The notes under the pieces were generated by a model. That model did not search any database. It was given only the letters and a program-made list of their open reading frames with translations, and had not been told where the DNA came from. Positions 28,380 through 54,132 of a DNA stretch of 64,000 nucleotides are shown piece by piece (the stretch's first letter is position 1; each line of letters starts with the position of its first letter). Source of the stretch: Nitrobacteraceae bacterium AZCC 2146. GTDB taxonomy: Bacteria > Pseudomonadota > Alphaproteobacteria > Rhizobiales > Xanthobacteraceae. The translations under genes were made by a program, and so were the position numbers. The stretch is from contig JBAGRP010000001.1 of the NCBI GenBank assembly GCA_036924855.1, forward strand, positions 6,064,001 to 6,128,000. Reading direction: 5' to 3'.

Positions 28380-28457
28380 TCGTATTTCGCCGGGGCCTTG
28401 CCCCAACCGCAGCTCACCGGCCAATATCGGCGGTGATCGAACAAAAAGGGGTGTGTC

Positions 28458-29774: not shown

Positions 29775-29782
29775 GGATCGTC

Positions 29783-30658: not shown

Positions 30659-32535
30659 AGACCGGTCGATCGGGCGGAGTGCGGGCTTGGCTTCCCGAAT
30701 TCGCTGTCTTTCTCACGCTAATCGCAGCCCCCGTCGTACTGCCGCATCTCGGCTTTTCCACCGACATGCTGACGCGGGTACTGAACTGGGGCCTGATTGG
30801 CCTCGGTTTCGATATCCTGTTCGGGCTGACCGGCCTGCTGTCGTTCGGACAGGCGGCATTCTATGGCGTCGGCGGTTTCGTGACCGCCTACCTGCTGGTC
30901 TCGGGTGCACTGTGCAGCGTGTGGCTGGCGCTTCTCGCAGGCACGGCCGCTGCGGGTGTGTTCGGACTGCTGGTCGGCTGGCTCGCCGTGCGCCGGATCG
31001 GCATCTATTTTACGATGATCACTTTGGCCTTCGGCCAGATGGCCTATTTCATCGAGAACTCGCCGCTGTCGAACTACACCGGCGGTGAGAACGGCATCCC
31101 CGGCGTGCCGGTGCCCGTGCTCGGCTTCGGCGAGCACGCCATCCGTATCAGCGCGGGCCTGCCGATGTATGTGCTGTTCGCCGTGATTTTCTTCACCGGC
31201 TACGTGCTGGCGCGTCGCATCGTCGGTTCGCCGGTGGGCGCGATATTGCTGGCGATCAAGGAGAACACCGGCCGGGTCGCGATGCTCGGCCACAATGTAC
31301 CGGCTTACAAGCTCACCGCCTTCGTCATCGCCGCGCTCTATGCCGGGCTGGCCGGCGGTCTGCTCGGTTCGTTTCAAAGCTACATGCCGCCGGACGCGTT
31401 CTCGCTGGAGACATCCGGCCAGCTTGTGGTGCAGACCATCGTGGGCGGCGCCGGAACGCTGATCGGACCATTGGTTGGCGCCGCCGTCTGGCTGTGGCTG
31501 CGCGATAATCTGCAGCTGATCCCCGGCTTGGCGACGCTGTGGAAGCTGGTGCTTGGCATCGCCTTCATCATGCTGGTCATCGGGCTGCGTCGCGGCATCT
31601 GCGGCGAGATTGCGCATTGGTGGAATGAGCGGCGCAATCTCGCGGCCTTGCGCGCGGCGGAGGTCAGGACTGAAGCGATCGAGGCGCACAACGTCGATGC
31701 CGCGACCGCACCGGTGGCCAAGGTCACGGACGTCACGCTGCCTTTGCCCGAACCTGCGACCGGCGATAGCGAGATCGCACTCGAAGCGCGTTCGTTGGCG
31801 CGCCACTACGGTGGCCTCAAAGCCGTCGATGGCGTTTCCTTCAAGGTGCGGCGCGGCTCGATCCATGCCGTGATTGGCCCCAACGGCGCCGGCAAGAGCA
31901 CGTTGTTCAAAATGCTGCTCGACGAGGTCAGCCCGTCCTCTGGTGAGGTGCTGCTGTTCGGCGAGAAGGTGACCGGCGCCGGCGTCAGCCACGCGGCGCA
32001 ACTTGGCATCGCCAAGAGCAACCAGCTCAACCAGCTGTTTCCGAATTTGTCGGTGCGCAAAAATCTGCGCATCGCCGCCCTCGCGCGTCGCCGTGGGCTG
32101 TTGCGGTTCGATCTGCTGCGTTCGGCGGACAGTCTGCAAGAGGTGGAGCAACAGATCGACGCGATCCTGGCGCTGCTCAACCTTGTGGAGCGCGCCGACA
32201 CGCCGGCGCATATTCTGGCCTATGGCGAAAAGCGGCGGCTCGAAATAGGCATGGCGCTCGCGACCAGCCCGAACGTGTTGCTGCTCGACGAACCGCTCGC
32301 CGGCATGAGTCCTGCGGAACGCGTAGCCACCTGCGCCTTCATTCGGGATATCGCGCGGTCGCGCACCGTCGTGATCGTCGAGCACGATCTCGACGCCATC
32401 TTCGGATTGGCCGAGCGCATCACCGTGCTGTACGAGGGCCGACTGCTGGCGGACGGGGCGCCAGACGAGATCCGCGGTAACCAGGCGGTTCAGGACGCCT
32501 ATCTTGGAGGGCTGCACGAACATGAGCCTGCTTGA
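30655..32535 (+). CDS. Fused ABC permease-ATPase (LivM-LivG)
   Basis: A 626-aa natural fusion. Residues about 1-320 are a LivM permease (LIGLGFDILFGLTGLLSFGQ, AVRRIGIYFTMITLAFGQMA, LKVP-type loop replaced by AIKENTGRVAMLGHNVPAYK, TIVGGAGTLIGPLVGAAVW). A hydrophilic linker (about 325-375) joins it to a LivG ATPase with Walker A GPNGAGKST at about 408-416, signature-region LAYGEKRRLEIGMALA, Walker B NVLLLDEPLAG and switch VIVEHDLDAI. Membrane and nucleotide domains are thus made 1:1. The reading frame is uninterrupted, so this is not an assembly artefact of two genes. It pairs with LivH and the separate LivF. Confidence 0.93.
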   Translation: MKTGRSGGVRAWLPEFAVFLTLIAAPVVLPHLGFSTDMLTRVLNWGLIGLGFDILFGLTGLLSFGQAAFYGVGGFVTAYLLVSGALCSVWLALLAGTAAAGVFGLLVGWLAVRRIGIYFTMITLAFGQMAYFIENSPLSNYTGGENGIPGVPVPVLGFGEHAIRISAGLPMYVLFAVIFFTGYVLARRIVGSPVGAILLAIKENTGRVAMLGHNVPAYKLTAFVIAALYAGLAGGLLGSFQSYMPPDAFSLETSGQLVVQTIVGGAGTLIGPLVGAAVWLWLRDNLQLIPGLATLWKLVLGIAFIMLVIGLRRGICGEIAHWWNERRNLAALRAAEVRTEAIEAHNVDAATAPVAKVTDVTLPLPEPATGDSEIALEARSLARHYGGLKAVDGVSFKVRRGSIHAVIGPNGAGKSTLFKMLLDEVSPSSGEVLLFGEKVTGAGVSHAAQLGIAKSNQLNQLFPNLSVRKNLRIAALARRRGLLRFDLLRSADSLQEVEQQIDAILALLNLVERADTPAHILAYGEKRRLEIGMALATSPNVLLLDEPLAGMSPAERVATCAFIRDIARSRTVVIVEHDLDAIFGLAERITVLYEGRLLADGAPDEIRGNQAVQDAYLGGLHEHEPA

Positions 32536-33226
32536 AGTCGATCGCATCAACACGCTGTATGGCGATTCCCACGTCTTGTTCGACCTCTCGATCCGGGTCG
32601 AGCAAGGCGAAGTGGTGGCGCTGCTCGGCCGCAACGGCGCAGGCAAGACCACCACGCTGCGCTCGATCATGGGCGTGCTGGCGCCGAAGACCGGCGCCAT
32701 CCGGCTCGATGGCAAGCCGATCGGCGGTCTGCCGCCGTCCGCCATCGCCGGCATGGGCGTGCAACTGGTTCCCGAGGAGCGCGCCATCTTCGGCGGCCTG
32801 ACGGTCGAGGAGAATCTCCGCATTGCTGCGCTGACCGCACCGAACGCCTGGTCCTTCGAGCGCATCTACGAGGTGTTTCCGCGGCTCAAGGAACGGCGCA
32901 AATCGGCGGGGCGCACGCTGTCCGGCGGCGAGCAGCAGATGCTGGCGATTGCGCGCGCGCTGATCCGCGACGCTCGCATCATTCTGCTCGACGAGCCGTT
33001 CGAAGGCCTCGCCCCACTGATCGTGCGCGATCTCGTCGTGGTTGCCCGGAATCTCGCCGCAGAAGGCCGAACCATGATCGTGGTCGAGCAGAACGTTGCG
33101 GCGGCGCTGAGCTTCGCCAACCGCGTTTACGGCCTCAACAACGGCCACGTCGTATTTGAAGGCACTCCGGCCGATCTGAATGCCAGTCCGAACCTGATGC
33201 GAGATTTTCTCGGCATCGCTTCGTGA
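32522..33226 (+). CDS. Branched-chain-type ABC transporter ATP-binding protein (LivF)
   Basis: A 234-aa ATPase. Walker A GRNGAGKTT, Q-loop region VQLVPEERAIFGGLTVEENL, signature LSGGEQQMLAIARAL, Walker B ARIILLDEPFEGLAP and the H-loop-equivalent VVEQNVAAALSFA are all seen. The last carries Gln rather than His, as usual in LivF. The ATG at 32522 overlaps the fusion gene by 14 nt and has GGAGGG 10 nt upstream. Last gene of the nitrilase-Liv operon; the 174 nt that follow before the convergent Gfo/Idh gene hold nothing I can support. Confidence 0.93.
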   Translation: MSLLEVDRINTLYGDSHVLFDLSIRVEQGEVVALLGRNGAGKTTTLRSIMGVLAPKTGAIRLDGKPIGGLPPSAIAGMGVQLVPEERAIFGGLTVEENLRIAALTAPNAWSFERIYEVFPRLKERRKSAGRTLSGGEQQMLAIARALIRDARIILLDEPFEGLAPLIVRDLVVVARNLAAEGRTMIVVEQNVAAALSFANRVYGLNNGHVVFEGTPADLNASPNLMRDFLGIAS

Positions 33227-34713: not shown

Positions 34714-34759
34714 TTGCCTAAACTAATGCCTTTACGATATAGTAAAGTAACTTAACTAT
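34714..34759 (+). promoter_or_regulatory. Sigma-70-like promoter overlapped by a MarR-type palindrome
   Basis: TTGCCT (34714-34719), an 18-nt spacer and TATAGT (34738-34743) form a plausible promoter. The -10 lies inside a 21-bp near-perfect palindrome (34739-34759; arms ATAGTNAAGT and ACTTNACTAT, one symmetric mismatch pair). A second repeat TTTAC-N5-GTAAA (34731-34745) interlocks with it. A repressor bound here would block transcription of the MarR gene that starts 5 nt later. The remaining 34412-34713 shows nothing else clear. Confidence 0.65.
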
Positions 34760-34764
34760 AAGGC

Positions 34765-35382
34765 ATGACCAAGCGACACCCAAATGTGGCCTCTGACCCC
34801 TCGCTGCGGACGGTTTCGTCCGAGGCGTTGCTGATCGATGGGTCCGACGCGGCGTTTCGGCGGATGATCCATACACTGATGGCGGTAGGCAATTCGGTAG
34901 ACGTCATGCGAGCCGGTTTTGCGCAGGTCATTGGGATTAGCGCGCCCCAGCACGAGCTTCTGATGCTGATTTATCGCGTCAACGACGGAAACGGCATCGG
35001 CGTGGGTGAGCTGGCGACCCTCGTGAAGCTGACCAGCGCCTTTGTTGCCACCGAAACGAAGAAGCTGAGCGCCGCGGGATTGATCGAGAAAGTCTCCGAT
35101 ACGGTCGACCGCCGGCGCGTCACTCTTCGGGTCACCGCTCTCGGTCTGAAGCGGCTTGCGTTCCTGTCGGCCACTCAGCGTCGGGTCAACGACGTGTTGT
35201 TCGAATGTTTCGATGCCAAGGCCTTTCAAAAATTCTCCCACTACCTTGAGCAGGTCCTGCCATGTAGCGAGCGTGCGGCGGAGCTTGTGACAAAGATCGC
35301 GCGCGAGCTCAAGCAATCGCGGGCGAGAACGCCTCGGCAGACGAGGCCAACCGCGGCATCCATCGGAGAAATCAAATGTTGA
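34765..35382 (+). CDS. MarR family transcriptional regulator
   Basis: A 205-aa regulator with a winged HTH at about residues 55-130: GISAPQHELLMLIYRV, GVGELATLVKLTSAFVATET, KKLSAAGLIEKVSDTVDRRR and VTLRVTALG. The wing D-x-R-R is typical of MarR. An N-terminal extension of about 30 residues and a C-terminal helical arm would build the dimer. The first ATG leaves almost no leader after the predicted -10, so a later start is possible. Its 3' end overlaps the HpaB-like gene by 7 nt. It probably represses this operon and releases it on binding the aromatic or heterocyclic substrate. Confidence 0.9.
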   Translation: MTKRHPNVASDPSLRTVSSEALLIDGSDAAFRRMIHTLMAVGNSVDVMRAGFAQVIGISAPQHELLMLIYRVNDGNGIGVGELATLVKLTSAFVATETKKLSAAGLIEKVSDTVDRRRVTLRVTALGLKRLAFLSATQRRVNDVLFECFDAKAFQKFSHYLEQVLPCSERAAELVTKIARELKQSRARTPRQTRPTAASIGEIKC

Positions 35383-36851
35383 AGACGGGTGCCGAACATT
35401 TCGCGTCGCTTCGCGACGGCCGTGTCGTCTATATCGGCAGCGAGCGGGTCGATGACGTTACCACGCATCCGGCATTTCGCAACGGCGCACAGTCGATCGC
35501 CGCGATCTACGATGCGAAGGCCGCGCCGGAAAATCGTGACTTGCTTACCTACGAGAATGGCGGCAAGCGCTACAGCGGCTATTTTCTCCAGGCACGCAGC
35601 CGCGCGGATCTCGAATTCCGGTACAACGTTCATCGCGCGATCGCGAACCTGTCCTACGGCATGTTCGGGCGCTCGCCGGATCATGTCTCCAGTTTCGTCA
35701 CCGGCATGAGTCTGAAGCCGGAGGTGTTCGGGAAATACGCCGATAACCTGCTCGCTTATTACGACCACCTGCGCGAGAACGACATCTACGCCGTCTATGC
35801 GGTGGTGCCGCCGCAGGCCGCGCGCAACCCGGATTTCTACGAGAAGAACAACCTGCCAATTCCGACGCTGCAGGTGGTGCGCGAGGACGAGGATGGTGTG
35901 GTGATTTCCGGCATGAAGATGCTGGCCACCGGCGCCGTCTATGCCAACGAAATATGGATCGGCAATCTGATTCCGCTGGCGCCGGGCCAGTCCAAGCAAT
36001 CGATTACCTGCGCAGTGCCCTGCAACGCCAAGGGGTTGTCGCTGTGGTCGCGCAAGCCATTCGAGCGCGACACCACCTCGGACTTCGAGAACCCGCTGGC
36101 GCACCGCTTCGATGAAACCGACAGCATGCTGCTGTGCGACGAGGTCAAGGTGCCCTGGGATAGGGTGTTCGTTCACAACGATGCGACGCTGGCGCGGCAG
36201 ATCTACATCCAGACCGCTGGCCATACCTATGGCAATCATCAGTCCAACGTTCGCTTCCACGCCAAGATGCAGTTGATCTTGGGCGTTGCCAGCCGGATCA
36301 CGCAGGCTTCCGGCGCGGACCAGATTCCGGCGGTGCGCGAGCTGCTCGGTAAGCTCGCGGCTTGGGAAGCGGCGCTCGGCGGCATCATCATGGGGCAGAT
36401 TCAGGCAGCCGAGGAATGGCCATCGGAGGGGTATTATTGCTTCAACCGTCGCTTCGTTTACGCCGCGCTGAACTGGTGCACCGAAAATTATTCGACCGTC
36501 ATCGATCAACTCAGGGAATTGTCGGGCGGCAGCGTGTTCCAGATGCCGGCGGATATCTCGGTGATGAACGATCCGGTCTTGAAGGACAGGTTTCTCGAAT
36601 ATTGGGCCTCGCCACAATTGCCCGCCGTCGATCGCATGAAGCTCTACAAGTTGGTCTGGGATCTGGTCGGTTCGGAATTTGCCGGCCGGCATCAGCAATA
36701 CGAAAAATTCTACGCCGGCGCGTCGTTCATCATCCGCAACTACAACTACACCCACGCAGATTGGGACGCCTATCATGACGTCGTCGATGGTCTGCTGAAC
36801 AGCTACGGCGTTCCAGGCGAAGGTGCAGCAATGCTGGCGGTCTCATCATGA
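35376..36851 (+). CDS. HpaB-family FADH2-dependent aromatic monooxygenase
   Basis: A 491-aa member of the 4-hydroxyphenylacetate 3-monooxygenase oxygenase family, which uses reduced flavin from a separate reductase to hydroxylate phenols or pyrroles in the cytoplasm. Family features are the N-terminal HpaB-N domain (YSGYFLQARSRADLEFRYNV), then YAVVPPQAARNPDF, MKMLATGAVYANEIWIGNL, FDETDSMLLCDEVKVPWDRV, AGHTYGNHQSNVRFHAKMQL and ELSGGSVFQMPADISVMND. No flavin reductase (HpaC) gene is visible in the window. Neighbouring amidase and isomerase homologues point to an N-containing ring as substrate rather than hydroxyphenylacetate. Confidence 0.92.
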   Translation: MLKTGAEHFASLRDGRVVYIGSERVDDVTTHPAFRNGAQSIAAIYDAKAAPENRDLLTYENGGKRYSGYFLQARSRADLEFRYNVHRAIANLSYGMFGRSPDHVSSFVTGMSLKPEVFGKYADNLLAYYDHLRENDIYAVYAVVPPQAARNPDFYEKNNLPIPTLQVVREDEDGVVISGMKMLATGAVYANEIWIGNLIPLAPGQSKQSITCAVPCNAKGLSLWSRKPFERDTTSDFENPLAHRFDETDSMLLCDEVKVPWDRVFVHNDATLARQIYIQTAGHTYGNHQSNVRFHAKMQLILGVASRITQASGADQIPAVRELLGKLAAWEAALGGIIMGQIQAAEEWPSEGYYCFNRRFVYAALNWCTENYSTVIDQLRELSGGSVFQMPADISVMNDPVLKDRFLEYWASPQLPAVDRMKLYKLVWDLVGSEFAGRHQQYEKFYAGASFIIRNYNYTHADWDAYHDVVDGLLNSYGVPGEGAAMLAVSS

Positions 36852-37504
36852 CCGAAACACCAGCCAAGCACGACGACGCTGTCTACCGGCAGCAGGGCTT
36901 TGGTGCGTCGTCTGGCGTTGGACAGCGGCCGGCACTGCTGATCGTGGATTTCGTCGAAAGCTTTGCGGACCCAAAGATGTTCGGCGGCGGCAATATCCCG
37001 GAAGCCATTGCTGCGACAGCTCGGCTGCTGGCCTTTGCACGCAGCCGGCAGTGGCCGGTCGCGATGACGCGTATCGTCTTTGCCGACGACGGCGCGGACG
37101 CCAACATCTTTACGCGCAAGGTGCCGGGCCTGCTGGCGCTCACGGAGGCCAACCCAAAGGGAGCCATTGTTCCCGAGCTGACGCCGATTGCCGGCGAGCT
37201 GGTGCTGCGCAAGCGGCTGCCGTCGGCATTTGCCGGAACGGATCTTACGGCGTGGCTGGCAGGCCGCGGCGTCGATACGGTGATCGTGACAGGCGCCACC
37301 ACATCGGGTTGCGTGCGTGCCAGCGTTGTCGATGCCATGGGCAATGGCTTTGTCACCGTGGTGGCGCGGGATTGCGTGGGTGATCGTGCGCTGGCGCCGC
37401 ACGAAGCCAATCTGTTCGACATGCAGCAGAAATATGCGGACCTGATGACGTCGGACGAGATCGTCGCGGCGTTTTCGGCGCGGTCCGCACAGGAAAAGGA
37501 GTGA
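36848..37504 (+). CDS. Isochorismatase-family hydrolase, maleamate amidohydrolase (NicF)-like
   Basis: A 218-aa cysteine hydrolase whose sequence follows NicF and N-carbamoylsarcosine amidase closely: YRQQGFG near the N-terminus, VDFVESFADPKMFGGGNIPE, TRIVFADDGADANIF, KVPGLLALTEANPKGAIVPE, RLPSAFAGTDLTAWLAGRGV and GATTSGCVRASVVDAMG. The triad is D34, K122 and C155. NicF turns maleamate into maleate and ammonia in the nicotinate pathway. It starts with an ATGA overlap on the HpaB-like gene and is followed by a maleate-isomerase-family gene, the order expected for release of ammonia and then isomerisation. Substrate identity is inferred. Confidence 0.9.
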   Translation: MTETPAKHDDAVYRQQGFGASSGVGQRPALLIVDFVESFADPKMFGGGNIPEAIAATARLLAFARSRQWPVAMTRIVFADDGADANIFTRKVPGLLALTEANPKGAIVPELTPIAGELVLRKRLPSAFAGTDLTAWLAGRGVDTVIVTGATTSGCVRASVVDAMGNGFVTVVARDCVGDRALAPHEANLFDMQQKYADLMTSDEIVAAFSARSAQEKE

Positions 37505-37510
37505 TTGGCC

Positions 37511-38260
37511 ATGTTGGACTCCCTCGGCTTTCGCCTCAAACTCGGCATCATCGCGCCCTCGACCAACACTTCGGTCCAGCCGGAGATGGAGGGCATGCGT
37601 CCCTACGGCGTGACCAATCATTTCGGCCGTCTCTACATTCCCGATGATCCCATCAAGAACGACGACGACTTCAACCGGCTGATGATCAACATCCGCGCCA
37701 CCATGGAAGATGCCGCGCGCAGCGTCATGACCTGCCAGCCGCAGCGGCTGGTGCTGGGGATGTCGTCCGAGACGTTCTGGGATGGTCTCGACGGCAGCGA
37801 ACGCCTCGCCGCGCGGATGCGCGAGATCGCTGGCGGCGCGGCGGTGACCATGGGATCGGATGCAGTGCGCGCAGCGCTCGCCAAATATCCCGGCGTCCGC
37901 CGCATCGCGGTGATCACACCCTATATGCCGGTCGGCGACGAGCAGGTCCGGCGCTTCTTCACCGATTGCGGCTTCGAGATCGTCGCGCTGAAAGGTCTGA
38001 AATGCGGGAGCCCCGTCGAGATCGCTTATGTGAGCGAGAAACAACTGCGCGATGCCATCAGCGAGATTAACGACGCTTCCGTCGATGCCATCGTACAGGT
38101 AGGCACGAATCTTGCGATGGCCCGGCTGGCGGGGGTCGCGGAATTCTGGCTCGACAAGCCGGTGATCGCCATCAACACCGCGATCTATTGGCATGCATTG
38201 CGCGAAAGCGGCATCCAGGATCGCGTCACCGGCTTCGGCTCACTGCTGCTCGACCACTAG
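37511..38260 (+). CDS. Maleate isomerase / arylmalonate decarboxylase-family protein lacking both usual Cys
   Basis: A 249-aa protein of the Asp/Glu racemase superfamily. It shows RLKLGIIAPSTNTSVQPEME, LVLGMSSETFWDG, VRRIAVITPYMPVGDEQVRR and IVQVGTNLAMARLAGV. In maleate isomerases, Cys stands at the places occupied here by the MSS and VGT segments, so neither catalytic Cys is present. This may be a different reaction (decarboxylase, lyase) or a binding role. The ATG at 37511 has AAGGAG 9 nt upstream; a TTG two codons earlier overlaps the previous stop and is less likely. Follows the NicF-like gene with no gap to speak of. Confidence 0.85.
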   Translation: MLDSLGFRLKLGIIAPSTNTSVQPEMEGMRPYGVTNHFGRLYIPDDPIKNDDDFNRLMINIRATMEDAARSVMTCQPQRLVLGMSSETFWDGLDGSERLAARMREIAGGAAVTMGSDAVRAALAKYPGVRRIAVITPYMPVGDEQVRRFFTDCGFEIVALKGLKCGSPVEIAYVSEKQLRDAISEINDASVDAIVQVGTNLAMARLAGVAEFWLDKPVIAINTAIYWHALRESGIQDRVTGFGSLLLDH

Positions 38261-38313
38261 CGTATGACAGGTTCAGGACATCTCAAGATGATTGCCCAGA
38301 TGGAAAATTCATT

Positions 38314-39186
38314 ATGATCGCCCAGCAGGTCATCAACGGCCTGATGCTCGGCGGCATCTATGTGCTAATCGCCGTGGCGTTCACGCTGGCGATCGGCGTT
38401 CTGAATTTCCTCAACTTCTCTATTCCCGGCACCTTCATGGTCGGCGGCATGGTGTCGTGGGCAATGATCAGGGTCGGCTGGCACTGGACCATTGCGTTCG
38501 GCGCGGCATTGTTCTGCGCGGCCTTTGTCGGATTACTGGTCTATTGGCTGACCTATCGGCCCAGCAAGAACAGCGATCCCGAAGTGCCGCTGGTCAGTTC
38601 GCTGGGCTTCCTCGTTCTGCTTGAGAATATCGCGATTATCTATCTCGGATCGGACCAGCAATCGTTCCCGCAGATCATCGCCGATTTCAACATGCGGATT
38701 GGACCGGTGGTGATCGGCGGCGCGCAACTGATCAGCCTGGTGGTTTCGCTCGGCGTCGTGTTCGGCCTCTCGATCTTCCTGAAGAGGAGTAATGCCGGCC
38801 GGCGGATTCGCGCCATCGCCGAGAACCGCGATACCGCGGCGCTGCTCGGCGTCAATGTCGGGGCGCTGGTGCCGCAGCTGTTCGTGTTCAACGCGCTGTT
38901 CACGGCGCTGGGCGGCATCCTGTTCGCGGTCAGCTATCTGCAGGTGTCGCCTTTCATGGGCGAGAACCTCGGCTTCAAGGGCGTCAGCGCCATGATCATC
39001 GGCGGCATGGGCAGCATCTGGGGCGCGATCATCGGTGGATTGCTGATCGGCCTCGTCGAGGTGCTGTCGATCCAGTCGCTCGGATCGGATTTCGTCAACA
39101 TCTGTGTCTACGGCCTTCTGCTCCTGCTGTTGATCGTGCGGCCGGAGGGATTGCTCGGCAAGCCGGCGGCCAGGGACAAGCTGTGA
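38314..39186 (+). CDS. Branched-chain-type ABC transporter permease (LivH family)
   Basis: A 290-aa inner-membrane permease with about eight helices. Marks are NGLMLGGIYVLIAVAFTLAI, GVLNFLNFSIPGTFMVGGM, the cytoplasmic loop RRIRAIAENRDTAALLGVNV and MIIGGMGSIWGAIIGGLLIG. The ATG at 38314 overlaps the stop of a ten-codon frame (38288-38317) whose first four codons repeat M-I-A-Q, so translation may be coupled to that leader. It is the first transporter gene of the MarR-HpaB operon; livM follows with TGATG overlap. Confidence 0.93.
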   Translation: MIAQQVINGLMLGGIYVLIAVAFTLAIGVLNFLNFSIPGTFMVGGMVSWAMIRVGWHWTIAFGAALFCAAFVGLLVYWLTYRPSKNSDPEVPLVSSLGFLVLLENIAIIYLGSDQQSFPQIIADFNMRIGPVVIGGAQLISLVVSLGVVFGLSIFLKRSNAGRRIRAIAENRDTAALLGVNVGALVPQLFVFNALFTALGGILFAVSYLQVSPFMGENLGFKGVSAMIIGGMGSIWGAIIGGLLIGLVEVLSIQSLGSDFVNICVYGLLLLLLIVRPEGLLGKPAARDKL

Positions 39187-40034
39187 TGACCGGCTACAGT
39201 CTCGGCATTCTTGTCCTGTTGTCGTTCAACGTCATCGCCGCCTATGCGGTCTATCTGCCGCTGGCGGCGGGACAGCTCAATCTCGGCATTGCCGGATTCA
39301 TGGTGGTTGGCGCCTACACGGCCTCGTTCCTGACCAACGAATTCGGCTGGCCGGTCGCTGGTGCCGTTGCCAGCGGTGGCGCGGTGGCTGCCGCGGTCGC
39401 ACTACTGGTGGCCATTCCGATTCTGCGCACCCATGGTATCTACCTGGCGCTGGCGACCTTCGCGCTCGGGCAGGTGATCGCGGCGATCTTCCTCAATCTC
39501 GAAGTGGTTGGCGGGGCGTCCGGCTATCCCGTCACGGCGCATATCGAAGCCATCGCGGTAATCGGCACGGCGATCGGCGTGGTGGCGTTCATGGCGTTGC
39601 TCTCGACCACGCGGTTCGCGCTCTATCTTACTGCGGTGAAAAGCGATCCGCTGGTATCGGACCTGATGGGCATCAACATCCGCTTCATCAAGGTCGCGGC
39701 GTTCACGCTCGGCGCCGCCGTCGCCGGGATCGGCGGTGGGCTTTACGCGCATCACTTCAATTATATCGAAGCGCAGTATTTCAGCGTCATGCTGAGCACC
39801 TATACGGTGCTCTATGTGCTGCTAGGCGGCACGCAGACAGTGTGGGGACCGCTGGTCGGCGCGCTGATCTTTACGCTGATGCCGGAGCTGCTGCGATCCA
39901 GCGCGCAATGGCGTTACGCGCTGTTCGCGGTCTTCATCATCCTGTTCATGGCCGTGCGTCCGCAGGGCCTGCTCACCACCGGATTTGGCAGTTACCTCCG
40001 AAAGCTGGTCTTGCGTCAGGATGTGGCGCGATGA
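39186..40034 (+). CDS. Branched-chain-type ABC transporter permease (LivM family)
   Basis: A 282-aa permease with about eight to nine helices: LSFNVIAAYAVYLPLAAGQL, NLGIAGFMVVGAYTASFLTN, RTHGIYLALATFALGQVIAA, the loop VKSDPLVSDLMGINIRFIKV and VLLGGTQTVWGPLVGALIFT. The start is ATG at 39186 sharing its A with the livH stop; a GTG one codon earlier is possible. It is a stand-alone LivM, unlike the fused version in the nitrilase operon. Its stop overlaps the livG start (ATGA). Confidence 0.93.
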   Translation: MTGYSLGILVLLSFNVIAAYAVYLPLAAGQLNLGIAGFMVVGAYTASFLTNEFGWPVAGAVASGGAVAAAVALLVAIPILRTHGIYLALATFALGQVIAAIFLNLEVVGGASGYPVTAHIEAIAVIGTAIGVVAFMALLSTTRFALYLTAVKSDPLVSDLMGINIRFIKVAAFTLGAAVAGIGGGLYAHHFNYIEAQYFSVMLSTYTVLYVLLGGTQTVWGPLVGALIFTLMPELLRSSAQWRYALFAVFIILFMAVRPQGLLTTGFGSYLRKLVLRQDVAR

Positions 40035-40801
40035 ATGCATCAACTCCGTTTCTGTCGGTGCAGGGCCTCACCAAATCATTTGATGGCCTCAGTGTCATCC
40101 GCGATCTGTCGTTCAGTGTGATTAAAGGAGCATCGACGGCGCTGATCGGGCCGAACGGCGCGGGAAAGACTACCGTCTTCAACCTGATCAGCGGCGTCTA
40201 CGATGTCAGCGGCGGCACCATCGCGCTCGATGGCGTCGATGTCACCGAAATGCCGTCGCGCCGGCGGATACAGGCCGGCATCGCGCGCAGTTTCCAGAAC
40301 ATCCGGCTGATGTCGCATCTCACGGTGCTCGACAATCTGCTGGTCGGCCAGCACGTGCGCGCCTCAGGCCTTGCGGACCTGCTGCAGCCGTTTCGCCTCA
40401 TTCCGAATCACCGCTGGATCCGCGGCGCGATGAAGGAACTGGAAGAGTGCGGCCTGCAGAAATATGCCCATGAACGGATCAGCGCGCTGCCCTATGGCAT
40501 TCGCAAGCGCATCGATCTGGTGCGCGCCACGCTCGCCTCGTCCTCGCTGCTGATGCTGGACGAGCCGGCGGCCGGTCTGAACGCCACCGAGACCGCCGAG
40601 TTGAAACAGCATCTCGATCTGTTGAAGTCGCGCGGCGTGACGCTCCTGGTGATCGAGCACGACATGCATTTCGTCAGCTCGATCTGCGGCCATGTCGTCG
40701 TGCTGAATTTCGGTGAGAAAATCGCCGAAGGGACCTTCGCGGAAGTGCAGACCGACGTAAACGTTCGCGAAGCCTATCTGGGCACGGAGGAAGCCGCATG
40801 A
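40031..40801 (+). CDS. Branched-chain-type ABC transporter ATP-binding protein (LivG)
   Basis: A 256-aa ATPase. Walker A GPNGAGKTT, Q-loop region GIARSFQNIRLMSHLTVLDN, signature region ISALPYGIRKRIDLVRATLA, Walker B SSLLMLDEPAAGLNATE and the His switch LLVIEHDMHFV are seen. The signature is the diverged LivG form (PYGIRK in place of LSGGQ). It is coupled to its neighbours on both sides by 4-nt overlaps (ATGA at 40031 and at 40798). Works with LivF on the cytoplasmic face of LivH-LivM. Confidence 0.94.
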   Translation: MNASTPFLSVQGLTKSFDGLSVIRDLSFSVIKGASTALIGPNGAGKTTVFNLISGVYDVSGGTIALDGVDVTEMPSRRRIQAGIARSFQNIRLMSHLTVLDNLLVGQHVRASGLADLLQPFRLIPNHRWIRGAMKELEECGLQKYAHERISALPYGIRKRIDLVRATLASSSLLMLDEPAAGLNATETAELKQHLDLLKSRGVTLLVIEHDMHFVSSICGHVVVLNFGEKIAEGTFAEVQTDVNVREAYLGTEEAA

Positions 40802-41538
40802 GCGCTCCCTTGCTTGAAGTGGCCAATCTGTCGGTCTCCTACGGCCGGGTTGCCGCGCTGCGTGACGTCACCGTCCGGGTCGAAGAGGGCCAGGTTGTCG
40901 CCGTGCTTGGCGCCAATGGCGCCGGCAAGAGCACGTTGCTGCTTACCGTGCTCGGCGCTGTGAAGCCGTCGGGGGGCGACATCTATTTCGACGGCGAGCC
41001 GGTGACCCAACAGCCCATGCATCGCCGCGTCGGTGGCGGCATCGTGCTGGTGCCGGAAGGACGCCAGATCCTGATCTCGATGACGATCGAGGAAAATCTG
41101 CTGATCGGCGCGCATTTGCGCAAGGATACCAAGGTGGTTCGGCGCGAGATCGAGGCGATCTACGATCGCTTTCCAAATCTGGCAAATCGCAAGGATCATC
41201 TCGCTTCTTGCCTGTCCGGCGGCGAGCAGCAAATGCTGGCGGTCGGCCGGGCGATGCTGGCGCGGCCGAAACTGATGATGATGGACGAGCCATCGCTCGG
41301 CCTGTCGCCGCTGTTCATCAGCCGGCTGTTCGATCTGATCAAGGAATTCAACCGCGATGGCCTGACCATTTTGCTGATCGAACAGAACACCGGCAAGGCG
41401 CTGTCGGTGGCGCATCACGCGGTGGTGCTCGAACTCGGTCGTGTGGTGCTGGACGGCGAACCCGCAAAACTCGCACAGGATCCGCGGCTGCAGGAAGCCT
41501 ACCTGGGCGGAGCAACCCCGGAAAAACTGTCCGGATGA
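40798..41538 (+). CDS. Branched-chain-type ABC transporter ATP-binding protein (LivF)
   Basis: A 246-aa ATPase. Walker A GANGAGKST, VLVPEGRQILISMTIEENLL, signature LSGGEQQMLAVGRAMLARPK, Walker B LMMMDEPSLGLSP and switch LLIEQNTGKALSVAHHA (Gln for His, usual in LivF). The ATGA overlap with livG ensures coupling. The binding-protein gene follows 42 nt later behind a GAAGGAAAG ribosome-binding site, allowing higher expression of the periplasmic component. Confidence 0.94.
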   Translation: MSAPLLEVANLSVSYGRVAALRDVTVRVEEGQVVAVLGANGAGKSTLLLTVLGAVKPSGGDIYFDGEPVTQQPMHRRVGGGIVLVPEGRQILISMTIEENLLIGAHLRKDTKVVRREIEAIYDRFPNLANRKDHLASCLSGGEQQMLAVGRAMLARPKLMMMDEPSLGLSPLFISRLFDLIKEFNRDGLTILLIEQNTGKALSVAHHAVVLELGRVVLDGEPAKLAQDPRLQEAYLGGATPEKLSG

Positions 41539-41580
41539 ATCCCCATCCAATGTCATCTCCAACCGAAGGAAAGAGCGACC

Positions 41581-42750
41581 ATGAATCATAAAGTCTTGAT
41601 TGCCGCGGCAGCCCTGATGCTGGGCACCACCGCCCACGTTCACGCCGAAGATCTCGTCATCGGCTTCACCATGGCCAAGACCGGTCCGTTCGTCAGCCTT
41701 GCCAGCACCAATGAAATCGCCGTCGACATGGCGGTCGATGAGATCAATGCGGCGGGTGGCGTCAACGGCTCCAAGCTCAAGGTCGTGAAGTTCGACAGCG
41801 CCGGCGATCCGAAGCAGTCGGTTCTGGCGGTGCAGCAGTTCGCCCAGGACAACGGTGCGCTCGCGGTGGTCGGCCCGTTCAGCTCCAGCGAAGCGCGCGT
41901 CGCATTCGCCACAGGCGAACGCCTCGGCATCGTGCAGATGTCGATGTCGTCCTCCGCGCCCGGCATCGCCGCGCCGTTCAAATATGCTTTCCGCAATACG
42001 GTCGACGAAGGCCTTGTTATCGGTACCGTTCTCAAGGCGATGATCGCCAAGAAGCTGCCGGCGGAATCGGCTGCGATCGCCTACGCTACCGACGATGCCG
42101 TGTCGAAATCGGTGGGCACCGCCGTGCTGCCGGTGCTGTTCACCGAACAGAAGATCCCGGTCAAGGGCTCCGTCGATTTCCAGTACAAGGCGTTCGATTT
42201 GTCGCCGCAGGTGTCGCAATTGGCACAGATGAAGGCCGACGTGATCGGCTTTGGCGCGCCGCCGGAGGCGATGATCAATCTCGCCAGGGAAATGAAGCGC
42301 CAGGGTGTCACCGGCCGGCTGATTGCCGGCACCACTGTCGCCGATCCTGATCTGCCCGCGCGCTTCGGCGATGCCGGCGAAGGCACGCTGATCGGGACGT
42401 CGTTCTACGACGACCTCAACGACGCGACCCGCAAGTTCGTAAAGGGCTTCTCCGAGCGCGCGACGAAGGCGGGTATCAGCCGCAAGGTGCCGAACCAGAG
42501 CGACGCGTCGTCCTATGACATCGTCTACATGTATGCCGAAGCCATGAAGAAGGGCAACGTAACAGGCAACCCCGCCAAGGTCGCTGACGAGCGTAGCGCA
42601 ATCCGCGATCAGCTTCGCGCTCAAAAGGACTTTCCGACGGTCGAAGGCAAGATCACCTTTGGAGAAAATGGCGACTCCATCAAGCCGATCTACGTGATCG
42701 AAGCCCGGGGTGGCCGCTGGAATCTGTTCGACGCCGGCGCGGCTAAATAA
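41581..42750 (+). CDS. ABC transporter substrate-binding protein (Liv type)
   Basis: Periplasmic binding protein of 389 aa. A Sec signal (VLIAAAALMLGTTAHVHA, to about residue 22) precedes the type I fold: LVIGFTMAKTGPFVSLASTN, VDEINAAGGVNGSKLKVVKF, VVGPFSSSEARVAFATGERL and DASSYDIVYMYAEAMKKGN. It is the ligand-capturing part of the MarR-operon transporter. From the enzymes in the operon I infer an aromatic or N-heterocyclic acid or amide as ligand. A strong hairpin follows its stop. Confidence 0.93.
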   Translation: MNHKVLIAAAALMLGTTAHVHAEDLVIGFTMAKTGPFVSLASTNEIAVDMAVDEINAAGGVNGSKLKVVKFDSAGDPKQSVLAVQQFAQDNGALAVVGPFSSSEARVAFATGERLGIVQMSMSSSAPGIAAPFKYAFRNTVDEGLVIGTVLKAMIAKKLPAESAAIAYATDDAVSKSVGTAVLPVLFTEQKIPVKGSVDFQYKAFDLSPQVSQLAQMKADVIGFGAPPEAMINLAREMKRQGVTGRLIAGTTVADPDLPARFGDAGEGTLIGTSFYDDLNDATRKFVKGFSERATKAGISRKVPNQSDASSYDIVYMYAEAMKKGNVTGNPAKVADERSAIRDQLRAQKDFPTVEGKITFGENGDSIKPIYVIEARGGRWNLFDAGAAK

Positions 42751-42768
42751 CGTTCTCATCGCCAACCG

Positions 42769-42810
42769 AGACGAGAATCCCTTGGGCTTCTCGTCTTATC
42801 TCCGGAGATA
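42769..42810 (+). terminator. Hairpin after livK, followed by a palindrome holding the next ribosome-binding site
   Basis: AGACGAGAA pairs perfectly with TTCTCGTCT across a 10-nt loop (42769-42796), a terminator-like stem without a clear T-run. Directly after it, the perfect 14-bp palindrome TATCTCCGGAGATA (42797-42810) contains the GGAG of the DUF1330 gene 3 nt before its ATG. Termination of the transporter transcript and possible masking of translation are both suggested. Confidence 0.6.
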
Positions 42811-42813
42811 TCG

Positions 42814-43116
42814 ATGTCTAGAGAACCCAAGGGATATGTGATTGCGCGGGTGACGGTGTCCGACCCCGAGGCCTATGCGGCCTATGCCAAGGCCGCCGGT
42901 GACGCCCAAAAGAAATATGGCGCAAAAGTTCTCGTGCGCGGCGGCGCCCATGTGGCGCTGGAAGGCGCCGCCCGGCCGCGCAATGTGGTGCTCGAATTTG
43001 AATCGCTGGCCCAGGCGCAGGCCTATTATCACTCTGCCGAATACCAGGCCGCCAAGATGAAGCGCGAAGGCGTGGCAACGGCCGAGATCGTCGCCGTGCA
43101 GGGTGTGGAAGGCTGA
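42814..43116 (+). CDS. DUF1330 domain-containing protein
   Basis: A 100-aa cytoplasmic protein of the dimeric alpha/beta-barrel (ferredoxin-like) DUF1330 family. Family marks are GYVIARVTVSDPEAYAAYAK, AKVLVRGGAHVALEG and RPRNVVLEFESLAQAQAYYH, then SAEYQAAKMKREGVA. Members are often found with catabolic genes and may bind or tautomerise small acids; none of the residues here proves catalysis. Its GGAG lies in a perfect palindrome. The SDR gene starts 7 nt after its stop. Confidence 0.9.
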   Translation: MSREPKGYVIARVTVSDPEAYAAYAKAAGDAQKKYGAKVLVRGGAHVALEGAARPRNVVLEFESLAQAQAYYHSAEYQAAKMKREGVATAEIVAVQGVEG

Positions 43117-43123
43117 ACTGAAA

Positions 43124-43879
43124 ATGAAGTCGAGCGGTCTCAGGGACAAGGTGGCGATCGTCACTGGTGGCTCGCAGGGCATCGGGTTTGAATATGCCAG
43201 GGGTCTGCTTGCTGCGGGCGCCAGGGTGGTGATTGCCGATGTGGTGCCGCCGGCGCCCGCTGCTGCGGAGTCCTTCGCCGATTGGGCCTATGTCGAAACC
43301 GATGTATCCGATCAGCGCGCCACGCTGCGCATGGCGGCGTTCGCCATCGACAAGTTCGGACGTATCGATGTGCTGGTCAACAATGCCGGCCTGTTCTCCA
43401 GCCTGGCCATGAAGCCTTGCGCCGATATCGCCATGGACGAATGGGACCGGGTGATGGCCGTCAATGTGCGCGGCACCTTTGGCTGCGTGCAGGCGGTGCT
43501 GCCCCACATGCGCAACAACGGTTACGGCAAGATCGTCAACATCGCCTCCGGCACCGTCTTCAAGGGCTCGCCGATGCTGCTGCATTACGTGACGTCGAAG
43601 GGCGCCATCATTGCCATGACCCGCAGCCTGGCGCGCGAGCTCGGCGAATTCGGCATTCGCGTCAATACGCTGGCACCGGGCTTGATCATGACCGAGAACG
43701 TCGCAGCCAATGCCGACTGGAACGGCACTGTGGCGAACGCGACCGTTGCGACCCGCTCCATCAAGCGCGAGGCCGAGGTCAAGGACCTGGTCGGCAGCCT
43801 GCTGTATCTGTGCTCGGAACAGAGCGACTTCGTCACCGGCCAGTGCATCGTGGTCGATGGCGGATCGGTGATGCACTAG
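43124..43879 (+). CDS. SDR family oxidoreductase
   Basis: Classical short-chain dehydrogenase of 251 aa. VAIVTGGSQGIGFEYARGLL holds the TGxxxGxG motif; VLVNNAG, the catalytic Ser in NIASGTVFKGSP, HYVTSK (Tyr-x3-Lys), APGLIMTENVA and the C-terminal TGQCIVVDGGSVMH follow. It reads as a FabG-like NAD(P) enzyme. Last gene of the rightward MarR-HpaB run, probably oxidising or reducing an intermediate after ring cleavage. The start at 43124 fits the family N-terminus; upstream codons do not. Confidence 0.92.
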   Translation: MKSSGLRDKVAIVTGGSQGIGFEYARGLLAAGARVVIADVVPPAPAAAESFADWAYVETDVSDQRATLRMAAFAIDKFGRIDVLVNNAGLFSSLAMKPCADIAMDEWDRVMAVNVRGTFGCVQAVLPHMRNNGYGKIVNIASGTVFKGSPMLLHYVTSKGAIIAMTRSLARELGEFGIRVNTLAPGLIMTENVAANADWNGTVANATVATRSIKREAEVKDLVGSLLYLCSEQSDFVTGQCIVVDGGSVMH

Positions 43880-44153: not shown

Positions 44154-44231
44154 GACATGTTGTCCGGGCTCCGCCGGACCGGCGCAGCCGCGCAAATAGC
44201 GGCGGTTCGTCCGCCAAAAGGGAGCACACCA

Positions 44232-45341
44232 ATGGACTTCGATAAAATTTCGCGGCGCTGCCTGCTGCAGGGGAGCGCCGCACTGACGCTGGGCTCGGTG
44301 CTTGGCGTTCGGTCCGCAGCCGCCGCCGACACCACCATCGGCTTCATCTATGTCGGCTCACGCGACGACTACGGCTACAACCAGGCCCACGCCCAGGGCG
44401 CGGCTGCGTTGAAGAAGATACCCGGCCTCAAGGTGATCGAGGAAGAGAAGGTTCCGGAGACCGACGCGGTCGAAAAGACCATGGAGTCGATGATCAATCT
44501 CGACGGCGCGTCGCTGCTGTTTCCGACGTCGTTCGGTTACTACAATCCGCACATGATCAAGCTGGCGAACAAGTTTCCGAAGCTGCGCTTCGAACATTGC
44601 GGCGGGTTGTGGAGCGAGAAGGACCCGAAAAACGCCGGCAGCTATTTTGGTTATATCGACGAGGCGCAATACATTTCCGGCATCGTGGCGGGCTACACGT
44701 CGAAGACCGGCAAGCTCGGCTTCGTCGCCGCCAAGCCGATCCCGCAGGTGCTGCGCAACATCAACGCGTTCACGCTCGGCGCTAAACTCGCCAATCCGAA
44801 GGCCACCACGCAGGTGATCTTCACCGGTGACTGGTCGATGCCGGTCAAGGAAGCCGAAGCCACCAACAGCCTGATAGACCAGGGCGTGGACGTGCTGACC
44901 TGCCACGTCGATGGTCCGAAGACCATGGTGGAGAATGCCGCGCGTCGCGGCGCGATGGTGTGCGGCTATCACGTCAACCAGTCGCCGCTGGCGCCGAAGG
45001 CCTATCTCACCGGCGCGGAATGGAACTGGGAAGCGCTGTATCCGAAATTCGTGAAGATGATCGCCGCCGGCGAAGCCATCCCGAATTTCTATCGCGGCGG
45101 TCTCAAGGAAGAGATCGTCAAGTGCTCGCCCTATGGCGAAGCGGTCTCCGCCGAAGCCCGCAAGCATGCCGACGACATCAAGGCGCAGCTGACCGCCGGC
45201 ACCTACACCATCTTCAAGGGGCCTTTGATGGACAACAAGGGCAAGCAGGTGATCGCCGCCGGTACCGATCGGGGCCAGAAGGATCCTGAGCTTGAGAAGA
45301 TGGACTACCTGATCGAGGGCGTGATCGGAGCTACTTCGTGA
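44232..45341 (+). CDS. BMP family ABC transporter substrate-binding protein
   Basis: Periplasmic binding protein of about 369 aa in the basic-membrane-protein (Med/PnrA-like) family. The N-terminus ISRRCLLQGSAALTLGSVLG is twin-arginine-like with a cut near AAAADTT. The mature protein starts TTIGFIYVGSRDDYGYNQAH and has LLFPTSFGYYNPHMIKLANK, FGYIDEAQYISGIVAGYTSK and VDVLTCHVDGPKTMVENAAR. Family members bind nucleosides, purines or small ureides. GGAG lies 7 nt before the ATG. First gene behind the RpoN promoter and coupled to the first permease by a GTGA overlap. Confidence 0.93.
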   Translation: MDFDKISRRCLLQGSAALTLGSVLGVRSAAAADTTIGFIYVGSRDDYGYNQAHAQGAAALKKIPGLKVIEEEKVPETDAVEKTMESMINLDGASLLFPTSFGYYNPHMIKLANKFPKLRFEHCGGLWSEKDPKNAGSYFGYIDEAQYISGIVAGYTSKTGKLGFVAAKPIPQVLRNINAFTLGAKLANPKATTQVIFTGDWSMPVKEAEATNSLIDQGVDVLTCHVDGPKTMVENAARRGAMVCGYHVNQSPLAPKAYLTGAEWNWEALYPKFVKMIAAGEAIPNFYRGGLKEEIVKCSPYGEAVSAEARKHADDIKAQLTAGTYTIFKGPLMDNKGKQVIAAGTDRGQKDPELEKMDYLIEGVIGATS

Positions 45342-46444
45342 CAGCTGGCGTTGGCGATTCCCTGGCTATGGACTCAACACAAGCGGCGAGACCGGGGTTT
45401 CGCCAACGCTATGGCGGGACGATCGAATATATTGTCATTCCTGCGGGGGCGCTGATCGGCGCCCTCGCCATGTTCGGTGTGTTCGTCGCCTTGTTCGGCA
45501 AGAACCCGCTCGATCTCTATTGGTACATGTACCAGGGCGCGTTCGGCACATGGTTCTCGTGGCAGAATACGCTGACCAAGGCCGCGCCGTTGATTCTGAC
45601 CGCGCTGTGCACGGCGCTGCCGGCGCAATTGGGCATGGTGATCATCGGCGGTGAAGGCGCGCTATTGATCGGCGCGCTGTCGGCGACTTCAGCGGCGCTG
45701 CTGCTACAATCCGCGCCGCCGCTCGTCGTGCAACTGGCGATGGTGCTGGCCGGCGTCGCCGGCGGTGGGCTGTGGATCATGCTCGCAGGCGGCTTGCGGC
45801 ACTATCGTGGCGTCAACGAAACCATCGCCAGCCTGTTGCTGGTCTATATCGCGCTCGCGATCCTGAACCACCTCGTCGAAGGCGTGATGCGCGATCCCGC
45901 CAGCCTCAACAAACCCTCCAGCCGCGAGATCGGCGCCGTCAACATGATCGGCTCGATTCCCGGCACCGATGTGCATTGGGGCTTCGTGTTCGGCGTCATC
46001 GCCGCGATCGCGTCCTATGTGCTGATCTATCACACGGTGTTCGGCTTTGCTGCCCGCGTTGCCGGCGGCAATGTGCGTGCCGCAAAAATCGTCGGCCTCG
46101 GCGTCGGCAAATTGATCATGATCACCTGTTTTCTCGCCGGTGGTGCCGCTGGCCTCGCCGGGATGGTTGAAGTCGCCGCGGTGCAGGGCCGCACCAACGC
46201 CAATCTCGCCGCCGGCTACGGTTTTACGGGAATCCTCGTGGCATTTCTGGCGCGGCATAATCCGCTGGCGATTATTCCGGTGGCGATCCTGCTCGGCGGC
46301 ATTAGCGCCTCAGGCGGGCTCTTGCAGCGCCGACTCGGACTGCCCGATGCCTCGGTGTTGGTGCTGCAGGGCATGATCTTCGTCGCGGTGCTGGCCAGCG
46401 ACGCGCTGTACGGCCGGATCGGCTTCCTGAAAGGAAAATCCTGA
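45338..46444 (+). CDS. ABC transporter permease, BMP/nucleoside (RbsC-related) type
   Basis: A 368-aa inner-membrane permease with about nine helices, including YIVIPAGALIGALAMFGVFV, ILTALCTALPAQLGMVIIGG (the E-G-A loop follows as EGALLIGAL) and GFTGILVAFLARHNPLAIIP. Size and the GGEG block match the YufP-type permease of BMP transporters. The start is GTG at 45338 overlapping the binding protein's stop, with GGAG 7 nt ahead; ATG at 45368 is an alternative. It pairs with the permease at 46446. Confidence 0.92.
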   Translation: MTAGVGDSLAMDSTQAARPGFRQRYGGTIEYIVIPAGALIGALAMFGVFVALFGKNPLDLYWYMYQGAFGTWFSWQNTLTKAAPLILTALCTALPAQLGMVIIGGEGALLIGALSATSAALLLQSAPPLVVQLAMVLAGVAGGGLWIMLAGGLRHYRGVNETIASLLLVYIALAILNHLVEGVMRDPASLNKPSSREIGAVNMIGSIPGTDVHWGFVFGVIAAIASYVLIYHTVFGFAARVAGGNVRAAKIVGLGVGKLIMITCFLAGGAAGLAGMVEVAAVQGRTNANLAAGYGFTGILVAFLARHNPLAIIPVAILLGGISASGGLLQRRLGLPDASVLVLQGMIFVAVLASDALYGRIGFLKGKS

Positions 46445-46445
46445 C

Positions 46446-47372
46446 ATGGCGGATGGCAACATCGGGCTCTGGACGGTCCCGCTCGCGGTGTTTGGCGGCG
46501 CGATCCGCATCAGCACGCCATTTCTGTTCGTCAGCCTTGGCGAATGCATCACCGAGCGCTCCGGCCGGATCAATCTCGGCCTCGAAGGCACGCTGGTGAT
46601 GGGAGCCATGAGCGCCTACGGCATTTCCTATCTTTCCGACTCGCCTTGGCTCGGCGTGCTCGCCGCGGGCATCACCGGTGCGCTGTTCGGTGCACTGCAC
46701 GCCGGCATTTGCTCGCTCCCACGCGTGAACGACATTGCCGTTGGCATCGCGCTGATGTTGTTCGGCACCGGGCTCGCGTTCTATCTCGGCAAGCCGCTGA
46801 TCGAGCCGACGGCCGCGCGATTGCCCGCGATCGATTTCGGCTGGTGGAGCGACGTCCCGCAGGTGCGTTCGGCGCTGCGGATCAACGTGCTGTTCCTGAT
46901 CGGCGTGGTGCTGGCGCCGATCCTGTTCTGGGCCTTCAAGACGACGCGCTGGGGACTGCTGATCCGTACCGCCGGCGAGAGCGCCGACGCGGCGCGTGCG
47001 ATGGGCTACTCAGTCAACATCATTCGGCTGCGCGCCACCATGTGCGGCGGCTTCCTCGCTGGGGTCGGCGGCTCGTTCCTGTCGCTGTTCTATCCCGGCA
47101 GCTGGAATGAAGGTCTCTCCAGCGGCCAGGGTGTCACCGCCGTGGCGCTGGTGATCTTCGCGCGCTGGGACCCCATGCTGTGTCTGTGGGCATCGCTGGC
47201 GTTTGGCGGCGCTGCGGCTTTGGGACCGGCGCTGCAATCGGTCGGCGTCACCTCGGGCTATCACCTGTTCAACGCGGCACCTTACATTCTCACGCTGGTG
47301 ATCATGATCATCACCTGTTCACCGAAGCGCACTTTGACCGGCGCGCCTGCCGAATTGTCGATCACCCGCTAA
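46446..47372 (+). CDS. ABC transporter permease, BMP/nucleoside type (second subunit)
   Basis: A 308-aa permease with about eight helices. [20 protein letters not shown] followed by [10 protein letters not shown] is the hallmark of the YufQ-type partner. [20 protein letters not shown] is the cytoplasmic coupling loop and [20 protein letters not shown] is the late conserved block. It starts 1 nt after the first permease ends. The biuretase-like gene follows 17 nt downstream, before the ATPase gene, so an enzyme sits inside the transporter operon. Confidence 0.93.
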
Positions 47373-47389
47373 GCAAGCGAGACATTGAT

Positions 47390-53769: not shown

Positions 53770-54132
53770 GCGTAAGTATCCGTGACGTATTTCCAAGATC
53801 TCTGTCTAACTCCAATTTTACGGCGGCGCGAAAAAAATAAATTGCGGTTTTCATCAACTCATTTCAGTCACATGATTTGTGTTGCGTGCTCCGGTTGGCG
53901 GGACTAGCATTTCGTTGCTTTCGACTTCAACTGGCCTTCGGTTCGTTGGGATGGCCGAGGTCCTTCGGAAGCTACGGTAAACATAAAGAGACGACAAAGT
54001 TTTTCGTCGCGGAGCTATGACACGCTGTCGGAAGCATATCCCGCTCTAAGTGTCGGTGCTGGGCGCCTGCGTCTTGAGCCCATTACAGTGCCTGTGATCG
54101 ACTAACAAAATAAAACCGTGGGAGGATTCGAC
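53770..54132. promoter_or_regulatory. xoxF / metallohydrolase divergent intergenic region
   Basis: This 363-bp gap separates divergent methanol-oxidation genes and must hold both promoters. An A-rich stretch (53817-53845) is nearest the metallohydrolase. A dyad GACGA-N9-TCGTC lies at 53990-54008. I cannot assign -35/-10 elements with confidence. GGGAGGA directly precedes the xoxF start. Confidence 0.4.

Follow-up and report, generated by a model that had tools for sequence, protein, structure and literature searches.

Introduction

The nic cluster for nicotinate breakdown includes NicX, NicD, NicF and NicE. A gene run that resembles it in one respect and departs from it in others was analyzed here in Nitrobacteraceae bacterium AZCC 2146, a Tardiphaga-type soil bacterium, within a 64,000-nucleotide stretch of DNA (the window; JBAGRP010000001.1, positions 6,064,001 to 6,128,000) that sits on a single 7.64 Mb contig. 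The likeness lies in a NicF-like amidase of high identity, with its catalytic triad, encoded beside a protein of the maleate isomerase fold; the differences are that no NicX or NicD domain occurs in the operon genes scanned, that an HpaB-type flavin-dependent oxygenase stands at the head, and that the isomerase-fold protein is without both catalytic cysteines. We propose, at about even chances of being right, that these genes form a MarR-regulated operon through which the cell takes up and degrades a small nitrogen heterocycle or cyclic imide, the substrate and reactions of which we infer from the gene content.

Other described systems are also partly alike. The 2-hydroxypyridine and lower nicotine pathways (DHPH, PKC or HpoH, NIT or HpoI) share the logic of hydroxylation, ring opening and amide hydrolysis, but use different protein families, and no such enzyme turned up in the operon. 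The indigoidine igi cluster of Leisingera contains IgiC, which falls in the same cysteine-less clade as our isomerase-fold protein (48%), called IgiC-like below; unlike that cluster, the ten operon genes scanned include no nonribosomal peptide synthetase (NRPS; igiD), and the setting is catabolic, with an importer and an oxygenase. The two-component HpaB/HpaC monooxygenases (group D) share the HpaB_N and HpaB domains, whereas the window protein scores below the HpaB equivalog cut-offs, carries a swapped Tyr/His pair and has no adjoining reductase gene. Lastly, MarR-HpaB-cupin loci, seen in the same genome (L048), in the Tardiphaga genome G006 (L234) and, as regards the cupin, in 42 of 80 HpaB loci, have HpaB relatives with a MarR neighbor and, in G006, the same Liv block, but cupin-like, UbiD or DUF2848 partners replace the NicF-like and IgiC-like proteins.

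The original suggestion of an undescribed route agrees with the openly accessible literature searched, where no matching description was found, subscription papers being outside the scope; searches of the same literature on isonicotinate, citrazinate and maleimide yielded nothing of use. Riboflavin breakdown was rejected as a source of maleamate, as the available portion of its description contains no HpaB or isochorismatase (PMC12746152). The kpi pathway for 4-hydroxypyridine was also set aside, since its hydroxylase belongs to PF01494 and its ring opener is a dioxygenase of the amidohydrolase family, according to the available part of that account (PMC7356986).

Gene organization and the putative operator

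Nine plus-strand genes extend from the MarR gene to livK (34765-42750), with DUF1330 and short-chain dehydrogenase/reductase (SDR) genes after them up to 43879, and each of the eleven frames is open, without internal stops. In order, the nine encode a MarR family regulator (34765..35382), the HpaB-type oxygenase (35376..36851), the NicF-like amidase (36848..37504), the IgiC-like protein (37505..38260, starting at TTG 37505 or ATG 37511), the permeases LivH (38314..39186) and LivM (39183..40034), the ATPases LivG (40031..40801) and LivF (40798..41538), and the substrate-binding protein LivK (41581..42750). Pfam scanning, which covered ten of the eleven genes and left out LivG, returned MarR_2/MarR above cut-off, HpaB_N with HpaB, Isochorismatase, Amdase, two BPD_transp_2, ABC_tran, Peripla_BP_6, DUF1330 and adh_short. 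LivH and LivF were the best NCBIfam matches of their genes, both below cut-off, and LivG was assigned by position, open reading frame and homology (homologs at 97-89% or similar in Liv blocks). The importer of the Liv (HAAT) type therefore has its full complement of two permeases, two ATPases and one binding protein.

The distances between successive genes from MarR to LivK are -7, -4, 0, +53, -4, -4, -4 and +42 bp; because of these 4 or 7 bp overlaps and gaps of no more than 53 bp, a single transcript is likely. The gap from LivK to DUF1330 is +63 bp, and that from DUF1330 to the SDR gene is +7 bp, given an SDR start at ATG 43124. The predicted run of overlapping or closely spaced genes, with DUF1330 and SDR genes after it, was thus borne out, except that it comprises nine genes and not eight; from the tight packing and the conserved order, it is probably one regulated unit, as had been suggested. 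The reported absence of a NicX-type ring-cleaving dioxygenase and a NicD-type deformylase also held, neither domain occurring in the ten genes scanned, although NicX elsewhere in the genome was not searched for. PF01494, nitrilase and NRPS domains were likewise missing from these ten.

A repeat search revealed overlapping, operator-like inverted repeats (34730..34760) that follow a -10-like hexamer and precede the MarR start codon, with arms at 34730-34738/34739-34747 (89%) and 34738-34748/34750-34760 (91%). The window has a single copy of the palindrome CTTTAC-N6-GTAAAG, which did not appear in any of 100 shuffles and is identical in the metagenome-assembled genome (MAG) Tardiphaga sp. RYN_499, the nearest named relative of the locus; MarR may repress the operon through this palindrome. 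The promoter-like site at 34714-34743 is weak evidence, as it is one of five found versus 3.1 (standard deviation 1.9) in shuffles, and promoters and terminators in general showed no clear excess above shuffled sequence. Similarity to RYN_499 starts abruptly near 34692 on the left and stops at livK on the right. A second RYN_499 contig (L237) ends within the same promoter block, and this second copy of the promoter palindrome, at 3269-3286 of the contig, may mean that the left border was duplicated or moved.

The IgiC-like protein

In the product of the fourth gene, the two catalytic cysteine positions of maleate isomerase are taken by Met86 and Gly200. Both sites are non-Cys in 52 of 52 readable window-like rows each, whereas all nine paralogs in the same loci keep both cysteines. 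The protein has the Asp/Glu racemase superfamily fold, as in 2xed, and chains of this superfamily were the strongest matches in structure searches, the lower Foldseek rows being binding proteins with poor TM-scores. Assignment as an arylmalonate decarboxylase failed, with Gly at the Cys188 equivalent and 59.9 bits against an NCBIfam cut-off of 225.

These residues bear directly on an ending of the nicotinate type, in which the NicF-like enzyme would convert maleamate to maleate and the fourth gene product would convert maleate to fumarate. The shared fold, the NicF-like neighbor and the jgi names of the homologs, which read maleate isomerase, all speak for such an ending; nevertheless, the substitutions described above, together with scores far below the equivalog cut-offs of NCBIfam, make it very improbable. 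The role in the maleate isomerase family that had been assigned to the fourth gene was consequently rejected, both catalytic cysteines being replaced across the clade, and thiol-based isomerization of maleate by this protein is excluded, as judged from its residues. The genome holds two more Amdase-family genes, far away, one of which shows a Cys-type second site, so that a maleate isomerase may be encoded elsewhere.

Leisingera IgiC has no Cys at either site, although its branch in the quick tree is long. Another relative, P0079 (75%), carries the name igiC as a source label only, its neighbors not having been seen. IgiC itself comes from an indigoidine cluster, according to the available part of the source (PMC5014874). 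Taken together, the IgiC-like proteins appear to be a poorly understood family common to this operon and to blue-pigment gene clusters. With the window's own genome counted each time, they were detected at E 1e-60 in 14 genomes out of 397 sampled from the order, 42 out of 385 from the class and 4 out of 398 from the phylum. The same genome contains a second cysteine-less IgiC-like gene (51%; L164, G000:C1:7606000-7625900), near a Bmp-type transporter, isochorismatase-like genes and, by eye, a molybdenum-hydroxylase-like gene.

The NicF-like amidase and its pairing with the IgiC-like protein

The third gene product is identical to the Bordetella chain 3ot4/3uao at 127 of 200 aligned residues (63.5%; E 1.7e-75), and its Asp-Lys-Cys triad (D34, K122, C155) is in register with that chain, in an isochorismatase fold by Pfam. 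The chain is listed as a 'putative isochorismatase', and we take it to be NicF. The earlier call of a NicF-like amidase is therefore well founded, and a maleamate-type activity is predicted. The NCBIfam models fall far short of their cut-offs, so that it is the identity to 3ot4/3uao that carries the maleamate label; many jgi names of the homologs read 'maleamate amidohydrolase'.

A tree of the isomerase-fold proteins, built by a quick method, contains an eight-row clade (Shimodaira-Hasegawa-like approximate likelihood ratio test, SH-aLRT, 99) of the window, L031, L154, L155, L156, L100, L096 and L204, the last two being one contig with identical rows. In every row of this clade a NicF-like gene lies directly upstream of the IgiC-like gene on the same strand, while the oxygenase varies, being HpaB in the window, L031, L096/L204 and L100, and of the Rieske type in L155. 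Outside the clade, the order hydroxylase-NicF-IgiC-like is also seen in L158, where the hydroxylase belongs to PF01494 and is closest, among solved structures, to PnpA (4e-67) and HspB (2.7e-47). Across 51 loci, many of which were chosen through HpaB, the partners were NicF-like (22), HpaB (14), PF01494 hydroxylase (12), PuuE-like (11) and LivH (10), and HpaB and the PF01494 hydroxylase never co-occurred. Searching with the IgiC-like protein gave 34 loci, 14 of them in the order and 20 hand-picked from the class search, and among these NicF-like was a partner in 16, PF01494 in 10, PuuE-like in 10 and LivH in 6. The PuuE (allantoinase)-like partner, as well as a gene annotated rutA in L172, would fit cyclic amides.

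The HpaB-type oxygenase

The oxygenase scored 270.6 bits against the 480.2 required for HpaB-1 and 238.2 against 885.2 for HpaB-2, i.e., below both NCBIfam equivalog cut-offs. In alignment, Tyr104 and His142 of Thermus HpaB, which are presumably substrate contacts, correspond to His103 and Tyr141 of the window protein. This swapped pair recurs in 76 of 86 HpaB rows, and in 13 of the 15 with an IgiC-like neighbor; it therefore marks an HpaB subfamily and not this operon. On account of the scores and of the swap, common to the subfamily as it is, a plain 4-hydroxyphenylacetate hydroxylase is not favored. Group D, to which HpaB belongs, includes a pyrrole-2-carboxylate monooxygenase in the table of a review (PMC6165268).

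In the neighborhood survey of 80 HpaB loci, the order HpaB-NicF-isomerase was found in two further loci (L096 and L100). The 15 rows with an IgiC-like neighbor do not form one clade in the HpaB tree, a single clade being rejected by the approximately unbiased test (p-AU 4.5e-8). The tree includes a few long-branched rows, and where a contig is short a neighbor may go unseen.

Several features of the surveyed loci deserve mention in their own right. The small cupin-like protein of the 42 loci matches Cupin_7 just below cut-off. Tandem hpaB copies occur at L083 4993-7994 and L104 8459-11446, the first copy having His/His at the swapped pair instead of His/Tyr. At L036 7372-12029 an HpaB relative adjoins a gene that by eye resembles 3-hydroxyanthranilate dioxygenase.

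Conservation of the operon and the setting of the importer

A 5.6 kb contig of RYN_499 carries MarR-HpaB-NicF-isomerase-fold-LivH-LivM in the same order at 94-97%, and its LivF (97%) and LivK (95%) are on another contig; the gene order is thus conserved outside the window genome, and its HpaB-NicF-isomerase part also in L096 and L100. RYN_499 is a fragmented MAG, 77% complete, and absences in it are for that reason weak. Among the 18 genomes of the genus, the window's own included, HpaB above 90% is confined to the window genome and RYN_499; 12 of the 18 have only matches of ~38-45%, and 4 have none at E 1e-50.

Two other Tardiphaga genomes, G006 and G014, carry the same Liv genes at 86-94%, adjoining a MarR gene and a different gene set. 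In G006 the Liv block and MarR gene are followed by HpaB (39%), a cupin-like gene and a DUF2848 protein, and in G014 by a flavin reductase and then the contig end. Since the block sits in these other settings, the importer is a movable module, and the claim that it is dedicated to this pathway is doubtful. LivK has distant solved relatives at best (4obb, E 4e-19). In G006, livK (L234 9587-10755) reads as two overlapping frames and not one.

The match of the Liv block in G006 and G014 stops at livK, and in RYN_499 the match to the end of livK passes directly into DNA matching the window from 48974 onward. The accessory genes DUF1330 (42814..43116) and SDR (43124..43879) are not part of the core, neither being kept beside livK in any of these three genomes. 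Further downstream lies a Bmp/PnrA-type transporter operon (44157-49602) that includes an isochorismatase-family gene of its own at 47390-48073; this operon was rejected as part of the unit, since in G006 its match (85%) does not adjoin the Liv block and in G014 it is on a different contig. Elsewhere in the window, 27330-33226 contains a nitrilase-like gene (by eye) followed by a second Liv-type operon, of binding protein, permease, permease-ATPase fusion and ATPase, while at 54118-57514 a PQQ (pyrroloquinoline quinone)-dehydrogenase-like gene, which by eye resembles XoxF, precedes cytochrome-like and binding-protein-like genes.

Discussion

A number of observations weigh against a single catabolic operon. 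The Liv genes of G006 and G014 lie beside sets without the NicF/IgiC-like pair. The 80 HpaB loci have a cupin in 42 cases, and an IgiC-like partner in 12 and a NicF-like one in 3; conversely, HpaB was present in only 2 of the 34 loci found by the IgiC-like protein, both on contigs also retrieved by the HpaB scan, and at least 13 of these 34 had none or few of the counted partners. In L154 (20 kb), as in the short contig L156, the pair occurs with no oxygenase recognized. The operon has no imidase gene, and the window has no flavin reductase gene, the eight PF01613 matches lying elsewhere in the genome (one of them adjoins a paralogous hpaB at 4.68 Mb). It could be, then, that there is no single pathway, an aromatic-acid module of HpaB and importer having been joined by rearrangement to an unrelated NicF/IgiC-like unit. 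The mosaic nature of the region, with RYN_499 similarity confined between the two borders given above, is in keeping with this view. We nonetheless regard it as unlikely, because HpaB and an IgiC-like gene come together in 12 of the 80 loci and on more than one branch of the HpaB tree, and because the pair is likewise found alongside other hydroxylases and alongside Liv genes.

Under the proposed catabolic operon, LivKHMGF would import the heterocycle or cyclic imide, and the HpaB-type oxygenase, drawing its reduced flavin from a flavin reductase of the cell, would hydroxylate the ring to a lactam or imide. The ring would then open to a cis-unsaturated monoamide, whose amide the NicF-like enzyme would hydrolyze, giving a small diacid and ammonia. 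The IgiC-like protein may bind a cyclic imide or cis-diacid in the maleate-isomerase pocket; being without the two cysteines, it could not use a thiol mechanism, and its step would most likely be ring opening, hydration or tautomerization.

A four-carbon route fits this scheme, and a five-carbon route is a rival to it. Pyrrole matches maleamate in its four carbons and single nitrogen; hydroxylating it to maleimide, opening the ring and hydrolyzing the amide would need neither NicX nor NicD. The resulting four-carbon route, from pyrrole or pyrrole-2-carboxylate through maleimide and maleamate to maleate, is the simplest chemistry without these enzymes, and we consider it possible, though not probable. 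In a five-carbon route, HpaB would form a trihydroxypyridine-like compound, the IgiC-like protein would open its ring to 2-oxoglutaramate, and the NicF-like enzyme would yield 2-oxoglutarate and ammonia, resembling the lower nicotine and 2-hydroxypyridine pathways. This route seems rather unlikely, considering that the 63.5% identity of the NicF-like protein points to maleamate-type amides and that the known 2-oxoglutaramate amidases are another enzyme, of the nitrilase family. On the other hand, the hydroxylase found as a partner in other loci is similar to the hydroxypyridine enzyme HspB, and IgiC of the indigoidine cluster falls in the cysteine-less clade; indigoidine shares a diazadiphenoquinone core with nicotine blue. 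That core of nicotine blue is described in the available part of one account, which also provides, in pAO1 and PY11, the precedent of a hydroxylase, a proposed ring opener (PKC/HpoH) and a 2-oxoglutaramate amidase (NIT/HpoI) (PMC6214936); moreover, 2-oxoglutaramate exists mostly as a lactam, as stated in an available part of another (PMC5485471). The NicF identity would thus favor the four-carbon route, and the IgiC link the hydroxypyridine route.

More broadly, we tentatively suggest that the IgiC-like proteins may be a class of enzymes not yet described, cysteine-less and built on the maleate-isomerase fold, that opens, hydrates or tautomerizes cyclic imides and hydroxypyridine-type lactams. 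Such a class would act in indigoidine formation as well as in the breakdown of N-heterocycles, where its partners would be a NicF-like amidase and an exchangeable oxygenase of the flavin or Rieske type; the present operon would be the HpaB version of a modular pathway for N-heterocycles. If this is true, a misleading annotation, the 'maleate isomerase' of the jgi names, would give way to a testable enzyme family, and igiC, a pigment gene of unclear role, would be tied to catabolic operons whose partners suggest its chemistry. The fixed amidase and IgiC-like protein, accompanied by a changing oxygenase, would also offer a handle for mining genomes for so far unrecognized degraders of N-heterocycles.

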